The translations under genes were made by a program, and so were the position numbers. A DNA stretch of 21,558 nt from a virus: the IMG/VR virus record IMGVR_UViG_3300030419_001808, positions 1-21,558 of that record. One strand, 5' to 3'. The notes beneath the pieces were generated by a model, which worked only from the letters and a program-made list of their open reading frames with translations, made no database searches and was not told the origin of the DNA. This document shows positions 3,310 through 15,281 of this stretch, piece after piece (the stretch's first letter is position 1; each line of letters starts with the position of its first letter).

Positions 3310-3720
3310 TCAACCTCCTAAAGCTGTTTTTATACCAGCTATATCAGTTGCATTGTCTATGTTTGTTTGCATAGTTGCATATTTTGTACGAATAGCAGCT
3401 CTAGCTGTTTCAGCTGCAGTAGCATCCTGACCAGGAATATTTAAAGAAATAATATTATCATGAGGTTTAAATTCTTCTGATCTTTTTTCTCTTCTAATAT
3501 TATGTGCTAAAACTTTTGATTTAGTTACATCTTCTGTAACTACACCTGAACCTTTTACCCAGGCATTTCTAAATGTTCGGTCTGTAGGAATCTTGTCATC
3601 CTCTATAACTTCATAATTAGTACCACTAGGAACACTTTTTTTTGCGGTTTCTATTTCTCCATCCACTGGGTGAATAATGGAAAGAGTGCCGTCTGATGTT
3701 AAATAAACTACTTTGGCCAT
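3310..3720 (-). CDS. Fibre-assembly / tail-accessory protein with DRTFRNAW motif (136 aa)
   Basis: The N-terminal half is beta-rich (KVVYLTSDGTLSIIHP). The motif PTDRTFRNAW at 45-54 is followed by VVTEDVTKSKVLAHNIRREKR. The pattern 'P.DRTFR.AW....g.V..Dm.KA..I.R...R..R' is a widespread signature of small phage proteins encoded next to tail fibres. The C-terminal half (about 100-136) is helical and alanine-rich and ends in Gly-Gly. The ATG has GGAGGA upstream, provided by the Gly-Gly-stop end of the 168-aa gene. Small size, position between two fibre genes and the known motif fit a fibre chaperone or adaptor rather than a receptor-binding tip. The exact function is not established from sequence. 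Confidence 0.8.
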   Translation of the reverse strand: MAKVVYLTSDGTLSIIHPVDGEIETAKKSVPSGTNYEVIEDDKIPTDRTFRNAWVKGSGVVTEDVTKSKVLAHNIRREKRSEEFKPHDNIISLNIPGQDATAAETARAAIRTKYATMQTNIDNATDIAGIKTALGG

Positions 3721-3723
3721 TTT

Positions 3724-4230
3724 TTATCCTCCAAAGAATACCAAATAAATTTCCTCGCCATCGCATTCTGTCGTTTCACCATTAGTACCACCAACATATG
3801 AGACACTAATACGTGCAGAGCCTACCGCAAAAGTCCTAGTCCAAGCCTCGTCACCTACAACTAAATATCTACTATCTGGAGAGGCTGCATATCCAACAAC
3901 AATATAATTTGTATTTGGCATATTGCTAGTGAAATTTATTGTATAATCACCTGTACCGTTGTCAGTAATTGAAGCTACATTATAGTGGGATCTAGGTGAA
4001 ATACTGCCAGCCGTTCCATCAAAATTAACCCAAGCTTTAGCTATTGTTGCATCTGGAGTAGAAGAGATAGTATCAAATGATAACTGACCATTCGATCCAT
4101 CTGTCTTTAAATATTGATCTGCACTACCTGCAGCAGTAGGCAGTTTTAATGTGATATCAGCTCCTGATGCTGGACCAGCTATGGTAACAGCGTTGTTACC
4201 ATCAGTGGTTTTAATTTTTAATTCTGCCAT
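3724..4230 (-). CDS. Short tail-fibre tip protein (168 aa)
   Basis: A short stem (ITLKLPTAAGSADQYLKTDG at 26-45) leads into a C-terminal beta-sandwich-like tip. The tip opens with AKAWVNFDGTAGSISPRSHY at 64-83 and continues with VASITDNGTGDYTINF at 85-100 and MPNTNYIVVGYA at 104-115. The pattern 'iKAWVNFnGt....r...NV.SItDngtGdyt.nFt..m....Y' is a common receptor-binding module in marine phage fibres. The start shares one base with the stop of the S74 fibre, which suggests the two are made together, possibly as stem and alternative tip. It ends GG-stop, and those codons supply the ribosome-binding site for the next gene. No chaperone domain is present. Confidence 0.85.
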   Translation of the reverse strand: MAELKIKTTDGNNAVTIAGPASGADITLKLPTAAGSADQYLKTDGSNGQLSFDTISSTPDATIAKAWVNFDGTAGSISPRSHYNVASITDNGTGDYTINFTSNMPNTNYIVVGYAASPDSRYLVVGDEAWTRTFAVGSARISVSYVGGTNGETTECDGEEIYLVFFGG

Positions 4231-5453
4231 TAACCTGCCTCCAGTGCTTTGACCTTAGTCGAAAGTTCTTTAATAGCATTCAACATATGCCAGAACAATT
4301 CATCAGTATTAACTGTTTTTACTCCTTTATCAGAAGTTTTAATACAATCAGGACAAACAGCTTCTAATTCTTGAGCTATTACACCAACATGAGTTGAAGT
4401 ATCACCTTGTCCAATAACTACTTGATGTGCTGTTGTACCTGATGGAAAGGCACTTAAATCGATAGTATCTTCAGATGCAGCAGGGGTATCATACTGACCT
4501 TTTACTTTTATATCACCAACAAAAGATCCCGCTGGAATCGTGTCAGATTCGGTATAATAAGTATCAGCAGGCTTAGTATATTGTTTATACTTAAAATTCC
4601 TTACTTTAACATTATCAATAACACTTAAACCAACAGTATTATCAGTGATATTTTTCTTTAATCGTTGGTCAGATGTTGTAGACCATGAAGAGCTGTTATT
4701 ACCTTGATAGCAAGCTCCACTGTCATTACCATAAATCCAAGTATTAGCATTGGACATGGGAGTATCATCCCATGCTATATACAACCTTTCACTTTCATCG
4801 TCAATTTCACTAGATCCAGCATATCTTCCCAAGCAAACGTTGTAAGATCCGGTAGTAAGCGTCTTACCAGCATGGAATCCTATGGCAGTATTATCTCTAC
4901 CTGTAGTTACATCCTGACCAGATTGACCACCTACGAATGTATTATATCCAGCGGATGTTGCTAATTCTGCCAAAGAAGATCTACCGATAGCAACGTTATC
5001 TCTTCCTGTAGTTTCCTTAATTAAAGCTGCATTACCAATAGCAACGTTATGCTGTCCAGTGGTAAGGTCTTGACCACATGCATTCCCAATAAGGGTATTA
5101 CCCGATCCTTGAGTTATGCTCTCACCACATTTATAACCATAAAGTGTGACTCCTTGTTGGGCACCATTAAAGCTACTTCCTGTATCAGTTCCGCAGTAAG
5201 TATTATTACCGTTATCAAGAGTAAGTCTTGAATCTTCTGAAGATATAGTTTGCCAAGTATTATCTCCTCTCAGAAACTTTGCATCACCTACTCCACTAGC
5301 TGATAAGTGGGCTATATCTACAGCACCAGCTGTTATTTCAGCAGAATCAATAGCATTATCTGCCATTGTGCCGTTATCTACGACATTATCATTTATGCCG
5401 CCAGCTGCGACACCTGCGATAGTATTTGCAGATCCATTAATTGTAATTGCCAT
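4230..5453 (-). CDS. Tail fibre with NxAIG head-like repeats and C-terminal S74 chaperone (407 aa)
   Basis: Residues 1-70 are fibre stem (VDIAHLSASGVGDAKFLRGDNTWQ). Residues about 114-212 carry roughly 20-24-residue repeats built on TG..N.AIG..A, resembling the left-handed parallel beta-roll repeats of YadA-type adhesins. The C-terminal 147 residues are an S74 intramolecular chaperone. It has the self-cleavage motif SDQRLKKNI with Ser261 and Lys266, a later HVGVIAQELEAV block at 355-366, and a terminal helix (LNAIKELSTKVKALEA) suited to a trimeric coiled coil. In the family, as in K1F endosialidase, the Ser/Lys dyad releases the chaperone after trimer folding, so cleavage between Thr260 and Ser261 is expected. 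The start overlaps the main fibre stop by one base. Confidence 0.9.
   Translation of the reverse strand: MAITINGSANTIAGVAAGGINDNVVDNGTMADNAIDSAEITAGAVDIAHLSASGVGDAKFLRGDNTWQTISSEDSRLTLDNGNNTYCGTDTGSSFNGAQQGVTLYGYKCGESITQGSGNTLIGNACGQDLTTGQHNVAIGNAALIKETTGRDNVAIGRSSLAELATSAGYNTFVGGQSGQDVTTGRDNTAIGFHAGKTLTTGSYNVCLGRYAGSSEIDDESERLYIAWDDTPMSNANTWIYGNDSGACYQGNNSSSWSTTSDQRLKKNITDNTVGLSVIDNVKVRNFKYKQYTKPADTYYTESDTIPAGSFVGDIKVKGQYDTPAASEDTIDLSAFPSGTTAHQVVIGQGDTSTHVGVIAQELEAVCPDCIKTSDKGVKTVNTDELFWHMLNAIKELSTKVKALEAG
4233..4673 (-). other. S74 intramolecular chaperone domain of the 407-aa fibre
   Basis: This segment codes for residues 261-407. It begins at the SDQRLK motif (Ser261/Lys266 dyad intact) and runs to a predicted coiled-coil terminus. 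By family knowledge it assists trimer folding and is then cut off, so it should not be in the mature virion. Confidence 0.8.
4818..5114 (-). repeat. Coding repeats, TGxxNxAIG unit, in the 407-aa fibre
   Basis: Residues about 114-212 show four to five degenerate units with the cores SGNTLIGNA, GQHNVAIGNA, GRDNVAIGRS, GYNTFVGGQ, GRDNTAIGFHA and GSYNVCLGRYA. The spacing is about 20-24 residues. They are protein-level repeats with little exact DNA identity. Confidence 0.75.
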
Positions 5454-8400
5454 TAGCTAATCACCCATCTTGCATTATTTGAAATTGTTACAGTGTTCTC
5501 AATAGTTATAGGTCCAACACTGTGTGCTCCTTTATTAGCTCCTAGTGTATATGCAGCACTGATAGTTTGATCATTCTCGTACATACATCCACTAGCTGTA
5601 GTACTTGATACATCAGACCATGTACATACACCAGCAGTTGTTGCTGTAAGTGCTTGCCCATTAGCAGTTGGTACTACCCCAGGTAATGTTATTGTATAGT
5701 TACTAGTCGCCTGAGCTGTAGCTGGTCCTGAAATAGTTGGACCGTATGTATTATTACTACCACCGCCTTCAAGTTTTATAGTGCCTGGTGTTGTATCATT
5801 GCTACCGTAACTACTTAAGGTTAAAACACCTTTATCTATATCAAGGCCGCCTACCGAATACATTAGTAGAGTATCATTACCACTAGAACCTCCTACTATA
5901 ATAGGGACTGGGTTAGCACCGGATGATATACCAAAGAATGCCATCTCTAATGGACTTGGTCCAACTCCATTAACAACTTGGAAACCACGTTTATCACCAC
6001 TTGCACCATCCGTAATAATATTCTGGGCATGAACTCCAAAGTTACTTCCTATAAACCGGAAGTATCCTAACATGTCAGTTTCAGACTCATTTATATAATA
6101 GAAATCATGAGTCTGCCCATGGACATTATTTGGTGTTTTCCAAGTAACAGTATTACCTCCAGTAGCACCGTTATTAGTTACACCATCAGAAGAACCAGCA
6201 TCAGACGTGCTTGCATCAGCAGCCTGTTTTTTTATTTTAAACGGATTAGTTCCTGAACTACAGTTATTAACAAATTTATATGTAGTATTAGGTAGTAAAT
6301 ATATCTCAGGATCATTTACATTACCATCAAATGCATCTCCACTGAATACCCAATGATCTGTACCACTATTAGTTACATTAATTGTAACAACACCAGAAGC
6401 GTCAGCCCATGCTAAACCTGATCCAGAAGCACTCTTCTGTAAGAAGTGTCCAGTAGTTTCTGTACCTGCATTAAGTTTAGCAGCTGTAACTGTATCATCA
6501 CCAGGTGTATTAATAGAAAGAGCTGAACCAGATTGTATTATAAATACTTCTGAACCATTTGGTAGGTTAGCACCAAATTCAATGGTGTGACCATCAGCCA
6601 TACAGAATCCAGTATTAGATCCTATAGATGTACCAGTATTAGGCTTCTGTACAACACCATTAACACTCACCATTAGCTGAGCAGCGTTAGTTACACTAGC
6701 TAAACTACCTGATGTTGAGTTCTCTCTAAGGTCATACTTAGATATAGAGCCATTAAATACAGCAGCATTACCTGTACCTGTATTAAATGCACAAGGTACT
6801 AGATACTTAAAGTCTCCTGTAGAGGTTACTTCACCCCAAGATGAGCCATCATAGACATACATCTTATTGGCACCAGTATCGAAGTAAAGGTCACCTTCAT
6901 CGTCAGTACCAGTAAGTGCTCCTTCACTTGATGCTACACGATATCTATTTTTAAAATCGTTTATATCTTGACTAAGTTGTTCTACGTCGTCATCTTTAGC
7001 TAATAGTCTATGGAAAGTATAGTTTTGCCCAGACCCTGTAGAAGAGACCAACATACCAACACCAGCACCAATTGTCTTACCTTGTAAGGCGTCTGGAGCT
7101 GCTTGGATGGTTACATTTGTATTACCTGCTGTCTTACAATTACCAGTAGTTGAATCAGGTGTACTTGTTGAATCAAATACTACACCACTTGCGTCAGTAA
7201 TACTAATTACAACACCAGATACTGGTTGTGTATTTGGAAAACTAGTTCTATTAGCAATAACTTCAAAGCCACCGAATGGTTCTAATTGTGCAGATACATA
7301 ATCAACAACAGCTCCTGATGTAGGGAATTTAGCATCATCATCAGTAATAGTTGTTTGTTTATCTAATCCATTAAGTTCATTTAGATCAGCTGCTGCACCT
7401 GTATAACCAACTAATTTGTTTAGTTCTGCTGTAGAGACTGTAGCTCCATCTAATATCTGTACTTCTGCTTGACTAAGATCAGCTAATGCATTTGCTGTGT
7501 CTTGAGCCATAGTACCTAGCTCAGTAATCTTAGCATTAGTAGTCTGTTTAGCATCTAACTGTGTTTGAATAGCTGATGTAACATTATCTACATAGTTCAG
7601 TTCTGCAGTAGTTACAGTAGCACCATCTAATATTTCAACTTCTGCTTGTGTTAACGCTGCTAATGCTGCTGAAGCTCCTGATTGACATCCTGATAAGTTT
7701 GTTAAATCAGCATCTAAAGATAGTTTTGATTGGGCTATAGCTGCATCTGATTTAATATCAGCATTGACTATTGAATCGTCTACAATGTTAGATGAGTTTA
7801 CTGAGTTTGCAGACATGTGCTCAAGATCAATAGCACCTGCGGCTATATGCTCAGAGTTGATAACATCATCTCCGATATTATCTCCATCTACAGCATCAGC
7901 TGCTAACATAGCATGTTCTACAGCACCTGTGGCTATAGTAACTGCACCTGTATTTGCAAGTGTTACGTCACCTGAAACAGCAACTTCAGTAGCTTTATTT
8001 GAACCATTACCTACAAGAATCTTAGCACTATCTAAATTCTCTAATTTAGTAAATTCAATAGCTGCGCTTGCATTAACATCAGCATTAACAATAGTCCCAT
8101 CTTTAATATGAGTACTATTAACAGCGCCATTTGCTATATCTTCACTATTTATTTGTAATTGTTGTTCTTCCTGTAGTGCATATAATACTTGATCTTGGTT
8201 ATTATTAAGATCAGCAGCACGTATAGACGATCCGGCAGCATATACCGCTTCAGCCGCATCGACATATGTATCTCTATAAACCCTTACAGTGACACCACTT
8301 AAAGGAGCACCGCTAGCTGCCTGTAAAGTACTGTCTACACTATTAGCGTTAAATTCGATTTTAGTGGGTGAAGTGGTGGTTACAGTGTATTTATTTGTAG

Positions 8401-8527
8401 CCTGAGTCTGGCCATTTAAGGCAACTTTGACATCAGTTCCGTCTGATTTAATTGTCGGGAATGTATACGTAAACTCCTTATGAGAACCATCAGGAGTATT
8501 CGTACCATTGTCAGTATATACTGCCAT
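5453..8527 (-). CDS. 17: Main tail fibre, T7 gp17-like (1024 aa)
   Basis: Residues 1-125 match the T7 gp17 N-terminal attachment domain, which docks the fibre to the tail: FTYTFPTIKSDGTDVKVALNGQ region, VYRDTY at 83-88, and AADLNNNQDQVLYALQEE at 104-121. Residues 130-420 are repetitive stem, including two copies of an AEVxILDGATVxTAELN unit (about 295-311 and 354-370). A DEGDLYFDTGANKMYVYDG module lies at 543-561, followed by a VSVNGVVQKP module (620-630). A cupredoxin-like domain occupies about 714-827. The end (TVTISNNARWVIS) is a common phage fibre terminus. The protein is almost twice the length of T7 gp17 (553 aa), the extra length being distal modules. No S74 domain is present. It starts 6 nt after the gp16-like stop without a strong ribosome-binding site. 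Confidence 0.92.
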   Translation of the reverse strand: MAVYTDNGTNTPDGSHKEFTYTFPTIKSDGTDVKVALNGQTQATNKYTVTTTSPTKIEFNANSVDSTLQAASGAPLSGVTVRVYRDTYVDAAEAVYAAGSSIRAADLNNNQDQVLYALQEEQQLQINSEDIANGAVNSTHIKDGTIVNADVNASAAIEFTKLENLDSAKILVGNGSNKATEVAVSGDVTLANTGAVTIATGAVEHAMLAADAVDGDNIGDDVINSEHIAAGAIDLEHMSANSVNSSNIVDDSIVNADIKSDAAIAQSKLSLDADLTNLSGCQSGASAALAALTQAEVEILDGATVTTAELNYVDNVTSAIQTQLDAKQTTNAKITELGTMAQDTANALADLSQAEVQILDGATVSTAELNKLVGYTGAAADLNELNGLDKQTTITDDDAKFPTSGAVVDYVSAQLEPFGGFEVIANRTSFPNTQPVSGVVISITDASGVVFDSTSTPDSTTGNCKTAGNTNVTIQAAPDALQGKTIGAGVGMLVSSTGSGQNYTFHRLLAKDDDVEQLSQDINDFKNRYRVASSEGALTGTDDEGDLYFDTGANKMYVYDGSSWGEVTSTGDFKYLVPCAFNTGTGNAAVFNGSISKYDLRENSTSGSLASVTNAAQLMVSVNGVVQKPNTGTSIGSNTGFCMADGHTIEFGANLPNGSEVFIIQSGSALSINTPGDDTVTAAKLNAGTETTGHFLQKSASGSGLAWADASGVVTINVTNSGTDHWVFSGDAFDGNVNDPEIYLLPNTTYKFVNNCSSGTNPFKIKKQAADASTSDAGSSDGVTNNGATGGNTVTWKTPNNVHGQTHDFYYINESETDMLGYFRFIGSNFGVHAQNIITDGASGDKRGFQVVNGVGPSPLEMAFFGISSGANPVPIIVGGSSGNDTLLMYSVGGLDIDKGVLTLSSYGSNDTTPGTIKLEGGGSNNTYGPTISGPATAQATSNYTITLPGVVPTANGQALTATTAGVCTWSDVSSTTASGCMYENDQTISAAYTLGANKGAHSVGPITIENTVTISNNARWVIS
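6047..6388 (-). other. Cupredoxin-like domain within the main tail fibre
   Basis: Residues about 714-827 contain NSGTDHWVFSG, then DPEIYLLPNTTYKFVN, SSGTNPFKIK, GVTNNGATGGNTVTWKTP and FYYINESETDMLGYFRF. This follows the order of cupredoxin-like domains (YxFSG, DPxL..GxTYxF, SGHPFxI, V.NNG..xGTVTF.VP, YYxCxxHxxM.G.I). The positions of His, Cys and His are occupied by Asn761, Asn813 and Glu816, and only Met819 is kept. The fold is inferred by motif comparison; copper binding looks unlikely. Confidence 0.6.
6467..6490 (-). repeat. Dispersed 24-nt linker repeat, copy in the main fibre gene
   Basis: This is the second copy of the VTxAKLNA linker repeat, identical to the copy at 1637-1660 except for two adjacent bases. 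It lies just before the cupredoxin-like domain of the fibre. Confidence 0.7.
7415..7660 (-). repeat. Two tandem-like coding repeats (ILDGATV unit) in the fibre stem
   Basis: Two segments of about 23 residues (290-312 and 349-371) share the core QAEVxILDGATVxTAELN and are offset by 59 residues. At DNA level they are clearly related but not identical. Such units are frequent in marine phage fibre stems. Confidence 0.75.
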
Positions 8528-12337: not shown

Positions 12338-14472
12338 AATGTTGCTCCACTATATTGTTGTATAGCTTCTAGATTCAGTCCTGGGATAAGACTTTCTGTA
12401 GAGTTAAAGTCATGACCACTTTCCATTTTATTGGCTCTATCGATACGTTTGCCATTAGGATGATGTTTATACATATATTGTACTAGTGGTGAACGTTTCT
12501 CTAAATCTACTTCACCTCTAGGTTTTGGTAGATCTTTACCTGTCTGAGATCTATATTGTAAATTAGCTATATCCCAACCAGACATACCTTTTACACGTTC
12601 AGCAAGTTTATTATAGTATGGTGGTATTTCCAGGCTTACTGGGTTGGCTGCATATTTCTCTAAGCGTTGGAACTGTTTTTCACTACCTGGTATAAGTTCT
12701 CCTGATAATAAATTACGTGTACTTTTACCACTATCATGGCCTTCTAATAACCATTTTCTACCTGATTGTACTTGAGATGTAAATGCTCTAGGATCTTTTG
12801 GTTCTGGTAATTGAGTATTTATCTGCCCTCTCTCAACCATATCCGATACTCGTTTAAATGCGTAATCATGCAGCTCTTCGGTATTCTCAAATTTATCTCT
12901 ATATTGCATATAGATTTGATTATACTCAGCAGTCGCATTCTCTAACATTAACTTATATTCAAGAGATTTCTCATCTTGCCTGCCAGTTAATTCACTTAAT
13001 TTACCGCCAACAACTGACTTAAGATGACTATCCCTTTTTCTAGCACTAGAAGAATCTATACCTGAGCCTAAAGGACCCTTAGCTATTTCCTTGTACTTAT
13101 CTCTTAAAGTCTTATCACCTATATCAGCCCAATCTTTAGTGGCTACTGGTACTCCATTTTTTATCTTCCACTCTATGTACTCAACTTTGTCTTGATCATC
13201 TTTATCTTCTAAAGTTAGATAACTTTTCAGACCTTCTGGTACCGGAACTCCAGGATGAGCTTCTAGAAAATTAGTAACAAGTTGTGATCTCTCTTCTCTA
13301 CTAGGTAATCCATGCTCCTCTACATGATTCTGTAGATTAGCCATATAGTTTTTCTGTATGACTAGCTTCTCATTATCAATAGCAGTTAATCTAGCAGCTT
13401 GTACTTCTGTTATCTTCTTATAAAGACCGCCACCTCGTCTATTATCAAACTCTTTAAATGTACTAAGTGGTACTAATTTACCACCCATCCCTTTATGGGG
13501 AAACATAAAGTTTTCTAAATCTGCTAGTTCTTTAGCAGATATACCTTGAGTTGGATCTACTTTATTCCTATCTACTAAATCAGCAATAAGATCTCTCAGA
13601 TCCTCACGCATAGAAGTTTTAGTTTTCTTGCTTGAGAATCCGTATTGGGTTTCAGATAAATCTAGAATAGTCTGACCTAGTGTACCTGTACGAGCACCCT
13701 CTACTAAAGCAGTTTCCCATGATTGCTTTCTTTCAGAATCCCTCTGAGCATTAGCAGCTTTGCGCCATTCATATAGGCCATTAGCTTGCTCACGCTCCAT
13801 AGTTTTACGGAACTCTTGGTCAATGAATTCATGACTTGCCCAACTAAGGTCGGTAAAGCCCATCTGAACATTGTGTTCCCGTACTATTTGATTATATTCA
13901 TTCTCATCTCTGATGCTCCCATAAGTCAACATGGAACCATCTTCACGCTCTATTTGTATGTTCTCCCTATTAGCTTCAAACCCAGCTCTCCAGTTAATAG
14001 CACCTTGTCTTAAGAGAGACTGTTTTGCCATAACTAGTTTATGACCAGTCATGTCCTCCAGTCTATCAGCTAAGACATGGTTACCTTCAGCTCTAGCTTT
14101 AGCAGCTAATTCATTGTATAAACCTACATCCTTTTGATAACCTTCTTTATCTTTATTACGTCGATTCCAATTAGCTAATTTTGTTTGAGTTATACCGGCT
14201 TCTAAATGAAGAGCATAAGCTTCATTCATGTAACGCTCATCACGTTTCTTAGCCTGGTCCTTATAAGTTTTAGCTAAAGTTACAGAAAGTTGTTGTGCTT
14301 GATTTACAATTTTTTCAAACCTTTTGGCATCTGCCATCCTTGCCCTAGCATTATCACGCTCTTGCGCCATTGCAGAGCCCCAGGCATTGGGATTAGATGC
14401 TTGATCAAAAGCCTTTGTATAATCAGGGGCTTTTTCATAGGTGAAAGTATCGTACTCATTAAAGCCTGCCAT
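12334..14472 (-). CDS. 15: Internal virion protein C, T7 gp15-like (712 aa)
   Basis: Length (T7 gp15 is 747 aa) and gene order support this call. The protein is mostly alpha-helical, charged and without signal peptide or membrane span. The N-terminus opens MAGFNEYDTFTYEKAPDYTKAF and is followed by long helices with heptad-like character (RARMADAKRFEKIVNQAQQL). In T7, gp15 and gp16 are ejected and assemble the periplasmic tunnel used to pull in DNA; the same role is inferred here. The ATG shares one base with the gp14-like stop (TGATG), and the stop overlaps the gp16-like start by 4 nt, so the three core proteins are probably translated in coupled fashion. Confidence 0.87.
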   Translation of the reverse strand: MAGFNEYDTFTYEKAPDYTKAFDQASNPNAWGSAMAQERDNARARMADAKRFEKIVNQAQQLSVTLAKTYKDQAKKRDERYMNEAYALHLEAGITQTKLANWNRRNKDKEGYQKDVGLYNELAAKARAEGNHVLADRLEDMTGHKLVMAKQSLLRQGAINWRAGFEANRENIQIEREDGSMLTYGSIRDENEYNQIVREHNVQMGFTDLSWASHEFIDQEFRKTMEREQANGLYEWRKAANAQRDSERKQSWETALVEGARTGTLGQTILDLSETQYGFSSKKTKTSMREDLRDLIADLVDRNKVDPTQGISAKELADLENFMFPHKGMGGKLVPLSTFKEFDNRRGGGLYKKITEVQAARLTAIDNEKLVIQKNYMANLQNHVEEHGLPSREERSQLVTNFLEAHPGVPVPEGLKSYLTLEDKDDQDKVEYIEWKIKNGVPVATKDWADIGDKTLRDKYKEIAKGPLGSGIDSSSARKRDSHLKSVVGGKLSELTGRQDEKSLEYKLMLENATAEYNQIYMQYRDKFENTEELHDYAFKRVSDMVERGQINTQLPEPKDPRAFTSQVQSGRKWLLEGHDSGKSTRNLLSGELIPGSEKQFQRLEKYAANPVSLEIPPYYNKLAERVKGMSGWDIANLQYRSQTGKDLPKPRGEVDLEKRSPLVQYMYKHHPNGKRIDRANKMESGHDFNSTESLIPGLNLEAIQQYSGATL

Positions 14473-15281
14473 CAGCCTACCTCCCTGAATTCAACATCAA
14501 TCTGATTATAATCAACACCAAGATAACCATTGTCCATACGTCCAACAGCTTTCGGATTTTTCTTATATACTTCCTCAGCCATTACACCTATATATTCATT
14601 ATCTTCATCGAGATATTTGAATTTATAGATATTATGACCATCAATAGATTGACCTATTTTCCTAACATCTTTCTTTAAACGACTATCAGATAGGGCTGCA
14701 ATACCAGCTATAGTACCTACCATACCCATTACATCACCAAACATAGCCATACCTACATTCTGCATAGCAGGTGCAGCCATTTGTATATCAGGTGTTGGGG
14801 CAAAAGCAGTGCTTGCGAATGACTGATCAATAGCATTAATTGCTCGTCTACGAGAGCTTTCCATGCCCTGCACTAATTCGCCTCTTTGATCTGTCAGTTT
14901 AGCGGCATTACTTGCAAAGTATACACCAGCCTGACCTGCTTCTAAGACTCCGAATCTTTTAACAGACTTACCAGTTACACGACCTGCTGATAGAAGCTTA
15001 CCATAGGTACTTTCTGACAAAAGTTTCCTACCATACTCTTCATTTTTAGTCCATACTGCTTTTTTAAATTTATTGTATCTAGCTTGGGCACGACTCCATG
15101 CTCCATGCTTACCAGCCAATCCTTCAAATATCTTGAATTTTTGAATCTCATGCTGGACTTTTTGTATACCGTAACGGCTATACTTTTGCATCCCCTTATG
15201 GAAACGATCCCACTGGCGATACCTATGTTGTATTTTAGCGTTACGATTAGCAGCCTTAGCTGCACTAGCTCCTGCGCACAC
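14472..15281 (-). CDS. 14: Internal virion protein B, T7 gp14-like, with C-terminal S74-like module (269 aa)
   Basis: It begins MCAGASAAKAANRNAK from a GTG codon at 15281, matching the MC- opening of T7 gp14, and overlaps the gp13-like gene. Residues 1-197 are helical, with Gln/Ala/Arg-rich heptads (ESSRRRAINAIDQSF at 141-155) and a hydrophobic stretch at about 167-197. This equals T7 gp14 in length (196 aa); gp14 forms the outer-membrane pore of the ejection channel. Residues 198-269 add a short S74-type module: SDSRLKKDVRKIG with Ser198 and Lys203, then IYKFKYLDEDNEYIGVMAEEV. That module usually ends fibres. It is about half the length of the one in the 407-aa fibre and lacks the terminal coiled coil. 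Whether it self-cleaves is unknown. Confidence 0.85.
   Translation of the reverse strand: MCAGASAAKAANRNAKIQHRYRQWDRFHKGMQKYSRYGIQKVQHEIQKFKIFEGLAGKHGAWSRAQARYNKFKKAVWTKNEEYGRKLLSESTYGKLLSAGRVTGKSVKRFGVLEAGQAGVYFASNAAKLTDQRGELVQGMESSRRRAINAIDQSFASTAFAPTPDIQMAAPAMQNVGMAMFGDVMGMVGTIAGIAALSDSRLKKDVRKIGQSIDGHNIYKFKYLDEDNEYIGVMAEEVYKKNPKAVGRMDNGYLGVDYNQIDVEFREVG
14475..14690 (-). other. S74-like module fused to the gp14-like protein
   Basis: This segment codes for residues 198-269. The SDxRLK core (Ser198, Lys203) and the YIGVMAEEV block at 230-238 are conserved. The insertion and coiled-coil end of full S74 domains are missing. Confidence 0.7.

Follow-up and report, generated by a model that had tools for sequence, protein, structure and literature searches.

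The tail fibre gene in the window (the whole stretch of DNA analysed, a virus record of 21,558 nucleotides) encodes, at residues 714-827, what is very probably (roughly 0.8) a copper-less cupredoxin domain, with its origin in marine-phage copies that have an intact copper site. These residues translate as VTINVTNSGTDHWVFSGD...SGTNPFKIK...DGVTNNGATGG...DFYYINESETDMLGYFRFIG. The features of the gene are the following:

5453..8527 (-), T7 gp17-like tail fibre gene, 1024 aa, of a P-SSP7-like cyanopodovirus (ORF list, PF03906, PHROG fibre families, P-SSP7 gp17)
6404..8497 (-), anchor and shaft, aa 11-708, common to the P-SSP7, P-SSP3, P-SSP2 and P-GSP1 fibres (tblastn, blastp)
6047..6388 (-), cupredoxin-like domain, aa 714-827 (profile match aa 716-838), copper site replaced
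6245..6247 (-), Asn761, column of the first His ligand (HPF motif; family alignments)
6089..6091 (-), Asn813, column of the Cys ligand (family alignments)
6080..6082 (-), Glu816, column of the second His ligand (family alignments)
6071..6073 (-), Met819, kept, axial Met column (family alignments)
5612..6046 (-), downstream module, aa 828-972, travelling together with the cupredoxin-like domain (blastp against L002)
5459..5686 (-), C-terminal cap, aa 948-1023, equivalent to the end of P-SSP7 gp17 (643-714; blastp E=4.5e-6 and alignment)

The protein has the N-terminal anchor of T7 gp17-like fibres: its N-terminus matched PF03906 (T7 fibre N-domain) with E=1.2e-4 and 22.3 bits, just under the gathering cut-off of 25.2, and aa 9-251 of P-SSP7 gp17 are 41% identical to it. 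In addition, PHROG fibre families match the 1024-aa fibre, and blastp gave 44% identity with P-SSP7 gp17 over 509 aa. Homology to P-SSP7-type fibres ends at aa 692-708. The P-SSP7 gp17 (715 aa) aligns with the fibre up to residue 708 and again at 948-1023; both proteins are alike in shaft and C-terminal cap, whereas P-SSP7 gp17 is without the insert of ~240 residues that lies between these two parts and carries the cupredoxin-like domain. The blastp comparison showed no such domain in the gp17 of P-SSP7, P-SSP3 or P-GSP1, no second copy was found in the 21,558-nt record, and the search for plasmid carriage of the domain gave no match. The original prediction had described the domain as the tip of the fibre. 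In the strict sense this does not hold, since ~200 residues follow it, the last ~75 of which are the cap common to P-SSP7 gp17; the domain is distal in the fibre, near its C-terminus, and not its extreme tip. Cryo-EM of the relative P-SCSP1u could not resolve the distal part of its fibre (PMC10575957). The tail tubular protein B of the phage is 53% identical to its homologue in P-SSP7 and P-SSP3, and this, together with the fibre alignments, identifies the phage as a T7-like cyanopodovirus, whose host is probably Prochlorococcus.

Known cupredoxins carry electrons or are copper enzymes. The ligand set of a type 1 (blue) copper site is His/Cys/His plus an axial Met, and of these the fibre domain keeps Met819 alone. 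The upstream motif reads SGTN(761)PF and the ligand loop YYIN(813)ESE(816)TDM(819). The residue numbers given earlier for this region (N761 in TNPF, Y810, N813, E816, M819) proved exact on translation, and the loss of the copper site that had been claimed is borne out by the Asn/Asn/Glu that fill the His/Cys/His columns and by the pattern of losses on the tree described below. The residues of the core formed by PFxI, DGVTNNGA and Y...M-x-G, that is P, F, I, DGVTNNG, Y, M and G, are all kept in the fibre domain.

When the fibre domain alone was searched against Pfam, PDB and NCBIfam, no cupredoxin was retrieved; the kinship appears only via the relatives with intact ligands. A profile was made from 82 of these intact relatives only, leaving out the fibre domain and its nearest kin, and it matched the fibre with 57.5 bits and E=6.6e-15 (for 100,000 sequences). 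The same profile reported, at E<=1000, none of 2000 shuffles of the domain and not the fibre with the domain removed, so that chance resemblance is ruled out. PHROG_677, which comes from an independent library, also matched the fibre domain (E=2.2e-13). An intact copy matched plastocyanin 2plt (0.0044) and amicyanin 3ply (0.0083), its His, Cys, His and Met falling on the copper ligands, and the intact relatives matched the NCBIfam amicyanin model at 3.2e-5 (below cut-off) and Pfam Copper-bind at 0.003 (below the gathering threshold). Each of these matches is weak, yet they are concordant and the ligands line up, which at the sequence level supports kinship with known cupredoxins. With amicyanin and plastocyanin (TIGR02657, TIGR02656, PF00127) the family shares fold and ligand order, the intact phage copies having the Cys-x2-His-x2-Met spacing of amicyanin; it differs from them in that phage copies score under the curated cut-offs and the fibre copy lacks all three strong ligands. 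Weak matches of four intact copies to PF25489 (At5g54830-like domain, plant; best 1.9e-4) may point to a remote kinship.

The cupredoxin fold, a Greek-key beta-sandwich of about eight strands, is also what the structure prediction returned. The AlphaFold model of the fibre domain, for which the domain and 38 relatives were used as input, had a pLDDT of 85.3, a pTM of 0.80, nine strands and almost no helix. By VIA, rusticyanin (2cal) matched with Z 9.9 and an rmsd of 2.6 A over 103 aligned residues, and copper proteins fill the matches listed. By Foldseek, the top matches were the N-terminal cupredoxin domain of the Hyphomicrobium CuNIR (2dv6) and rusticyanin (4e-4 to 1e-3), followed by laccases, plastocyanin and CoxB, with TM-scores to solved cupredoxins that were modest (0.40-0.46). 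Rusticyanin and CuNIR, although the best structural matches, are only 11-13% identical to the domain and are copper carriers or enzymes, not virion proteins. It should be noted that the alignment behind the model is dominated by intact copies, so the model shows the fold of the family more than an independent fold of the fibre domain. A control model of an intact copy (pLDDT 90, pTM 0.78) gave by VIA rusticyanin with Z 9.4 and an rmsd of 2.0 over 87 residues and CuNIR with Z 10.9 but a high rmsd of 8.7, cupredoxin proteins being on top among the matches listed. Its raw Foldseek list also holds Ig domains (titin, CD2), and for this reason the fold claim rests on the fibre model, VIA and the sequence taken together. 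Taken in this way, the predicted, almost all-beta model bears out the cupredoxin fold that had been proposed.

The family to which the domain belongs is a large and apparently undescribed set of marine-phage virion domains. With the fibre domain as query we retrieved 80 IMG/VR loci, 25 bacterial loci and 201 phage records; with an intact copy, 354 phage records, nearly all of them from cyanophages. The consensus is GHPFxI...DGVTNNGA...G-x-I-x-F-x-VP-x-x-AP-x-x-LYYxCxxHxxMxGxI. The domain makes up the C-terminal ~100 residues of PHROG_677, the gp9-like baseplate wedge/tail fibre connector (syn9, S-RIM2, P-SSM7 and S-SSM4 among others), a different protein and position from the fibre, where His/Cys/His/Met are kept and which is annotated only by its position in the T4 scheme. 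Intact copies of this kind close the connector of cyanomyoviruses at loci L315-L321, L324 and L325, the carriers being S-RIM2, syn9, S-RIM8, S-RIM14, S-TIM4, P-SSM7, S-SSM4, S-MbCM100 and ACG-2014d. Long fibre proteins contain the domain too, many Flavobacteriaceae proteins end in it, and the P-SSM2 spike (L313) has two intact copies. Closer to our phage, the cultured Prochlorococcus podoviruses P-SCSP2 (ORF33; L311, 7443-8756) and P-GSP1 (PRQG_00035; L312, 7572-9208) have the same domain in the fibre gene cluster, but there it is intact in its ligands and forms the N-terminus of a separate accessory fibre gene a few genes downstream of gp17, not a part of gp17. The domain has been shuffled, as a module, inside the fibre gene cluster. 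The bacterial copies (L082-L106) come from Flavobacteriaceae, Dokdonella, Tahibacter and a Ferrovibrio MAG; they are single or tandem, have all ligands intact, and many are C-terminal in proteins of ~400-650 aa.

The ligands were surveyed on 110 representatives at 80% identity. Eighty-two of the 110 have the amicyanin-like set (HCHM; His/Cys-x2-His-x2-Met), so homologues with intact ligands, which the original prediction had pointed to as a check, are in fact the majority. Twenty-five are without His, Cys and His, and only three are partial (YCQM, HAHM, HDLL); the Met is lost in only two of the 110. All 18 bacterial representatives are intact. Triple loss of His/Cys/His was seen 25 times against 1.6 expected under independent loss, and the pairs H1-H2, C-H2 and H1-C rank 1, 2 and 3 among 4371 column pairs (MI-APC), with the Met uncoupled; shared descent in a 14-row and a 6-row copper-less clade makes the raw counts of pairs and the mutual information too high, and the count on the tree is therefore safer. 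The tree, built on ~108 columns and with many forks unresolved, requires at least nine changes between intact and not intact, or at least seven if triple losses alone are counted. The AU test rejected (p=0.0015) a single ancient loss from which all copper-less copies would descend. His/Cys/His are retained jointly and disappear jointly, which is most simply read as three residues acting as a unit, a metal site; no other sequence evidence speaks as strongly for a metal, predicted to be copper, in the intact copies as this all-or-nothing loss.

Copper-less copies are found in several settings. L067 and L080 each have one copper-less and one intact copy within the same protein. A clade with Phe, Ala, Thr/Val/Ile and Met in the ligand columns (L046, L107-L153, S-B05, S-B43) is found in cyanomyovirus-like phages, at aa ~170-290 of their long fibre proteins, and has a core-filled look, not a polar one. 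In L054, L056, L078 and L187-L203 a second, partly matching repeat without His or Cys in the ligand columns lies directly behind the copper-less copy, and is perhaps a further decayed copy.

The closest kin of the fibre domain are L001 and L002 only, which are about 58-59% identical in the domain. The fibre domain and L001 form a clade (support 100/99) nested among HCHM phage copies; the ligand-column letters are NNEM in the fibre and NSNM in L001/L002. In L002 the domain lies in a separate fibre gene of 525 aa and is followed by the same downstream module, with the order kept, and this fibre is 45% identical to aa 677-972, domain included (blastp). Compared with L001/L002, identity is 58% inside the domain and 40% in the flanks; dN is 0.41 and dS 1.25, which is near saturation, giving dN/dS ~0.33. 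This ratio, and the identity above that of the flanks, indicate that the fibre copy is maintained by purifying selection. A pseudogene or frameshift is ruled out by that ratio and by the frame, open over 1024 aa. The descent from copies with a full ligand set is upheld by the intact relatives, the alignment columns and the nesting on the tree. The original prediction had the fold recruited after the loss of copper: the loss stands, and the order does not, since varied phage tail and baseplate proteins have intact copies and the fibre clade is nested among them, which places recruitment before loss.

The history would thus start from a marine-phage domain with an intact type 1-like site (His ... 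Cys-x2-His-x2-Met, in amicyanin spacing). Together with its downstream module, this domain probably entered a fibre of the P-SSP7 type by recombination, between the shaft and the C-terminal cap; in the lineage of the fibre and L001/L002 the three strong ligands were probably replaced together (by Asn, Asn, Glu, and in L001/L002 by Asn, Ser, Asn), and purifying selection preserved the beta-sandwich, the Met and the motifs DGVTNNGA and PF. Such a domain, without strong ligands, would neither hold copper nor move electrons, and would be a side module, folded and close to the distal end of the trimeric fibre, with its loops, the former copper loop included, most likely presented to a host-surface ligand.

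We give an even chance to the proposal that its job is contact with the host surface, which makes this the likeliest of the jobs considered. The ephrin ectodomain, in an animal membrane protein, is a copper-less cupredoxin fold that serves in receptor binding; it is a precedent by analogy for this use, and we claim no sequence relation. A different job for the same cupredoxin domain, which we regard as a tenable but doubtful alternative, is that of a structural spacer, a beta-sandwich without ligand that stabilises the trimer and whose copper site was dropped unselected. The location inside the fibre, between shaft and cap, would suit a spacer. So would the recurrence of losses in several long fibre proteins and the 14-row clade with Phe, Ala, a small residue and Met, which fills the site like a core repacked for stability. 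In the fibre copy, however, the replacements are polar (N, N, E) and not core-filling, no other part of the insert is as well conserved as the domain in the comparison with L001/L002, and, like receptor modules, the domain passes whole from one fibre gene to another.

Asn/Asn/Glu/Met could also hold a hard ion such as Ca2+, and the site would then be changed rather than lost, with Asn761, Asn813, Glu816 and the backbone binding another ion that steadies the loop. Oxygen donors do occupy all three replaced positions both in the fibre copy and in its nearest kin (N/S/N), and T4 gp37 is a precedent for metal ions in fibre tips (iron, HxH; PMC11705849). We nevertheless consider such a site improbable: the replacing letters are not conserved save the Asn at the first position (NNEM against NSNM), Met is no ligand for hard ions, and the sample holds no precedent in the family. 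Still less probable, and disfavoured here, is a generic Ig-like decoration domain that is no kin of cupredoxins and whose relatives have His/Cys/His/Met by coincidence. Ig-like sheets are common in phage proteins, titin and CD2 are in the Foldseek list of the intact model, and the Pfam scores fall under the gathering thresholds; but sequence alignment places all four ligand columns on those of plastocyanin and amicyanin, the His/Cys/His trio is retained or given up jointly, and nearly every match of the fibre model is a cupredoxin.

With the copper-less cupredoxin domain as the preferred reading, the more striking discovery is the intact family, the fibre copy being one of several copper-less branches of it. 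As the 82 intact copies show, the domain need not lose its ligands to live in a tail protein, and the family amounts to a natural experiment in which the same virion domain has a complete site in most phages and has had the whole site removed at least seven times. The original prediction spoke of an electron-transfer fold; for the ancestor such a function is conjectural, the copper ligands being visible in the sequence and a redox partner not. A speculative extension, which we think rather unlikely, is that hundreds of marine cyanophages have true copper-loaded cupredoxin domains on their virions (baseplate connector, fibres) for docking on copper-handling proteins of the host surface or for redox contact with them, and that the fibre lineage is among several that abandoned copper and made a recognition surface of the ligand loop. 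Whether there is copper on cyanophage virions, and for what purpose, is directly testable in cultured syn9, S-RIM8, P-SSM7, P-GSP1 and P-SCSP2. Our literature search, with subscription papers and preprints outside its scope, found no paper naming a cupredoxin in a phage tail. The nearest published idea is iron in phage fibres via HxH motifs (PMC11705849), and copper-loaded virion cupredoxins, if true, would be its copper counterpart.

Elsewhere in the window, a 136-aa ORF of the fibre gene cluster (3310-3720, -) had no PHROG match. A 407-aa fibre-like gene (4230-5453, -) ends in a stretch that, by eye, is S74-type and chaperone-like (SDxRLKK...GVIAQE / GVMAEE), and the same ending, also judged by eye, was seen in a virion gene at 14472-15281 (-) that adjoins a phrog_308 gene.
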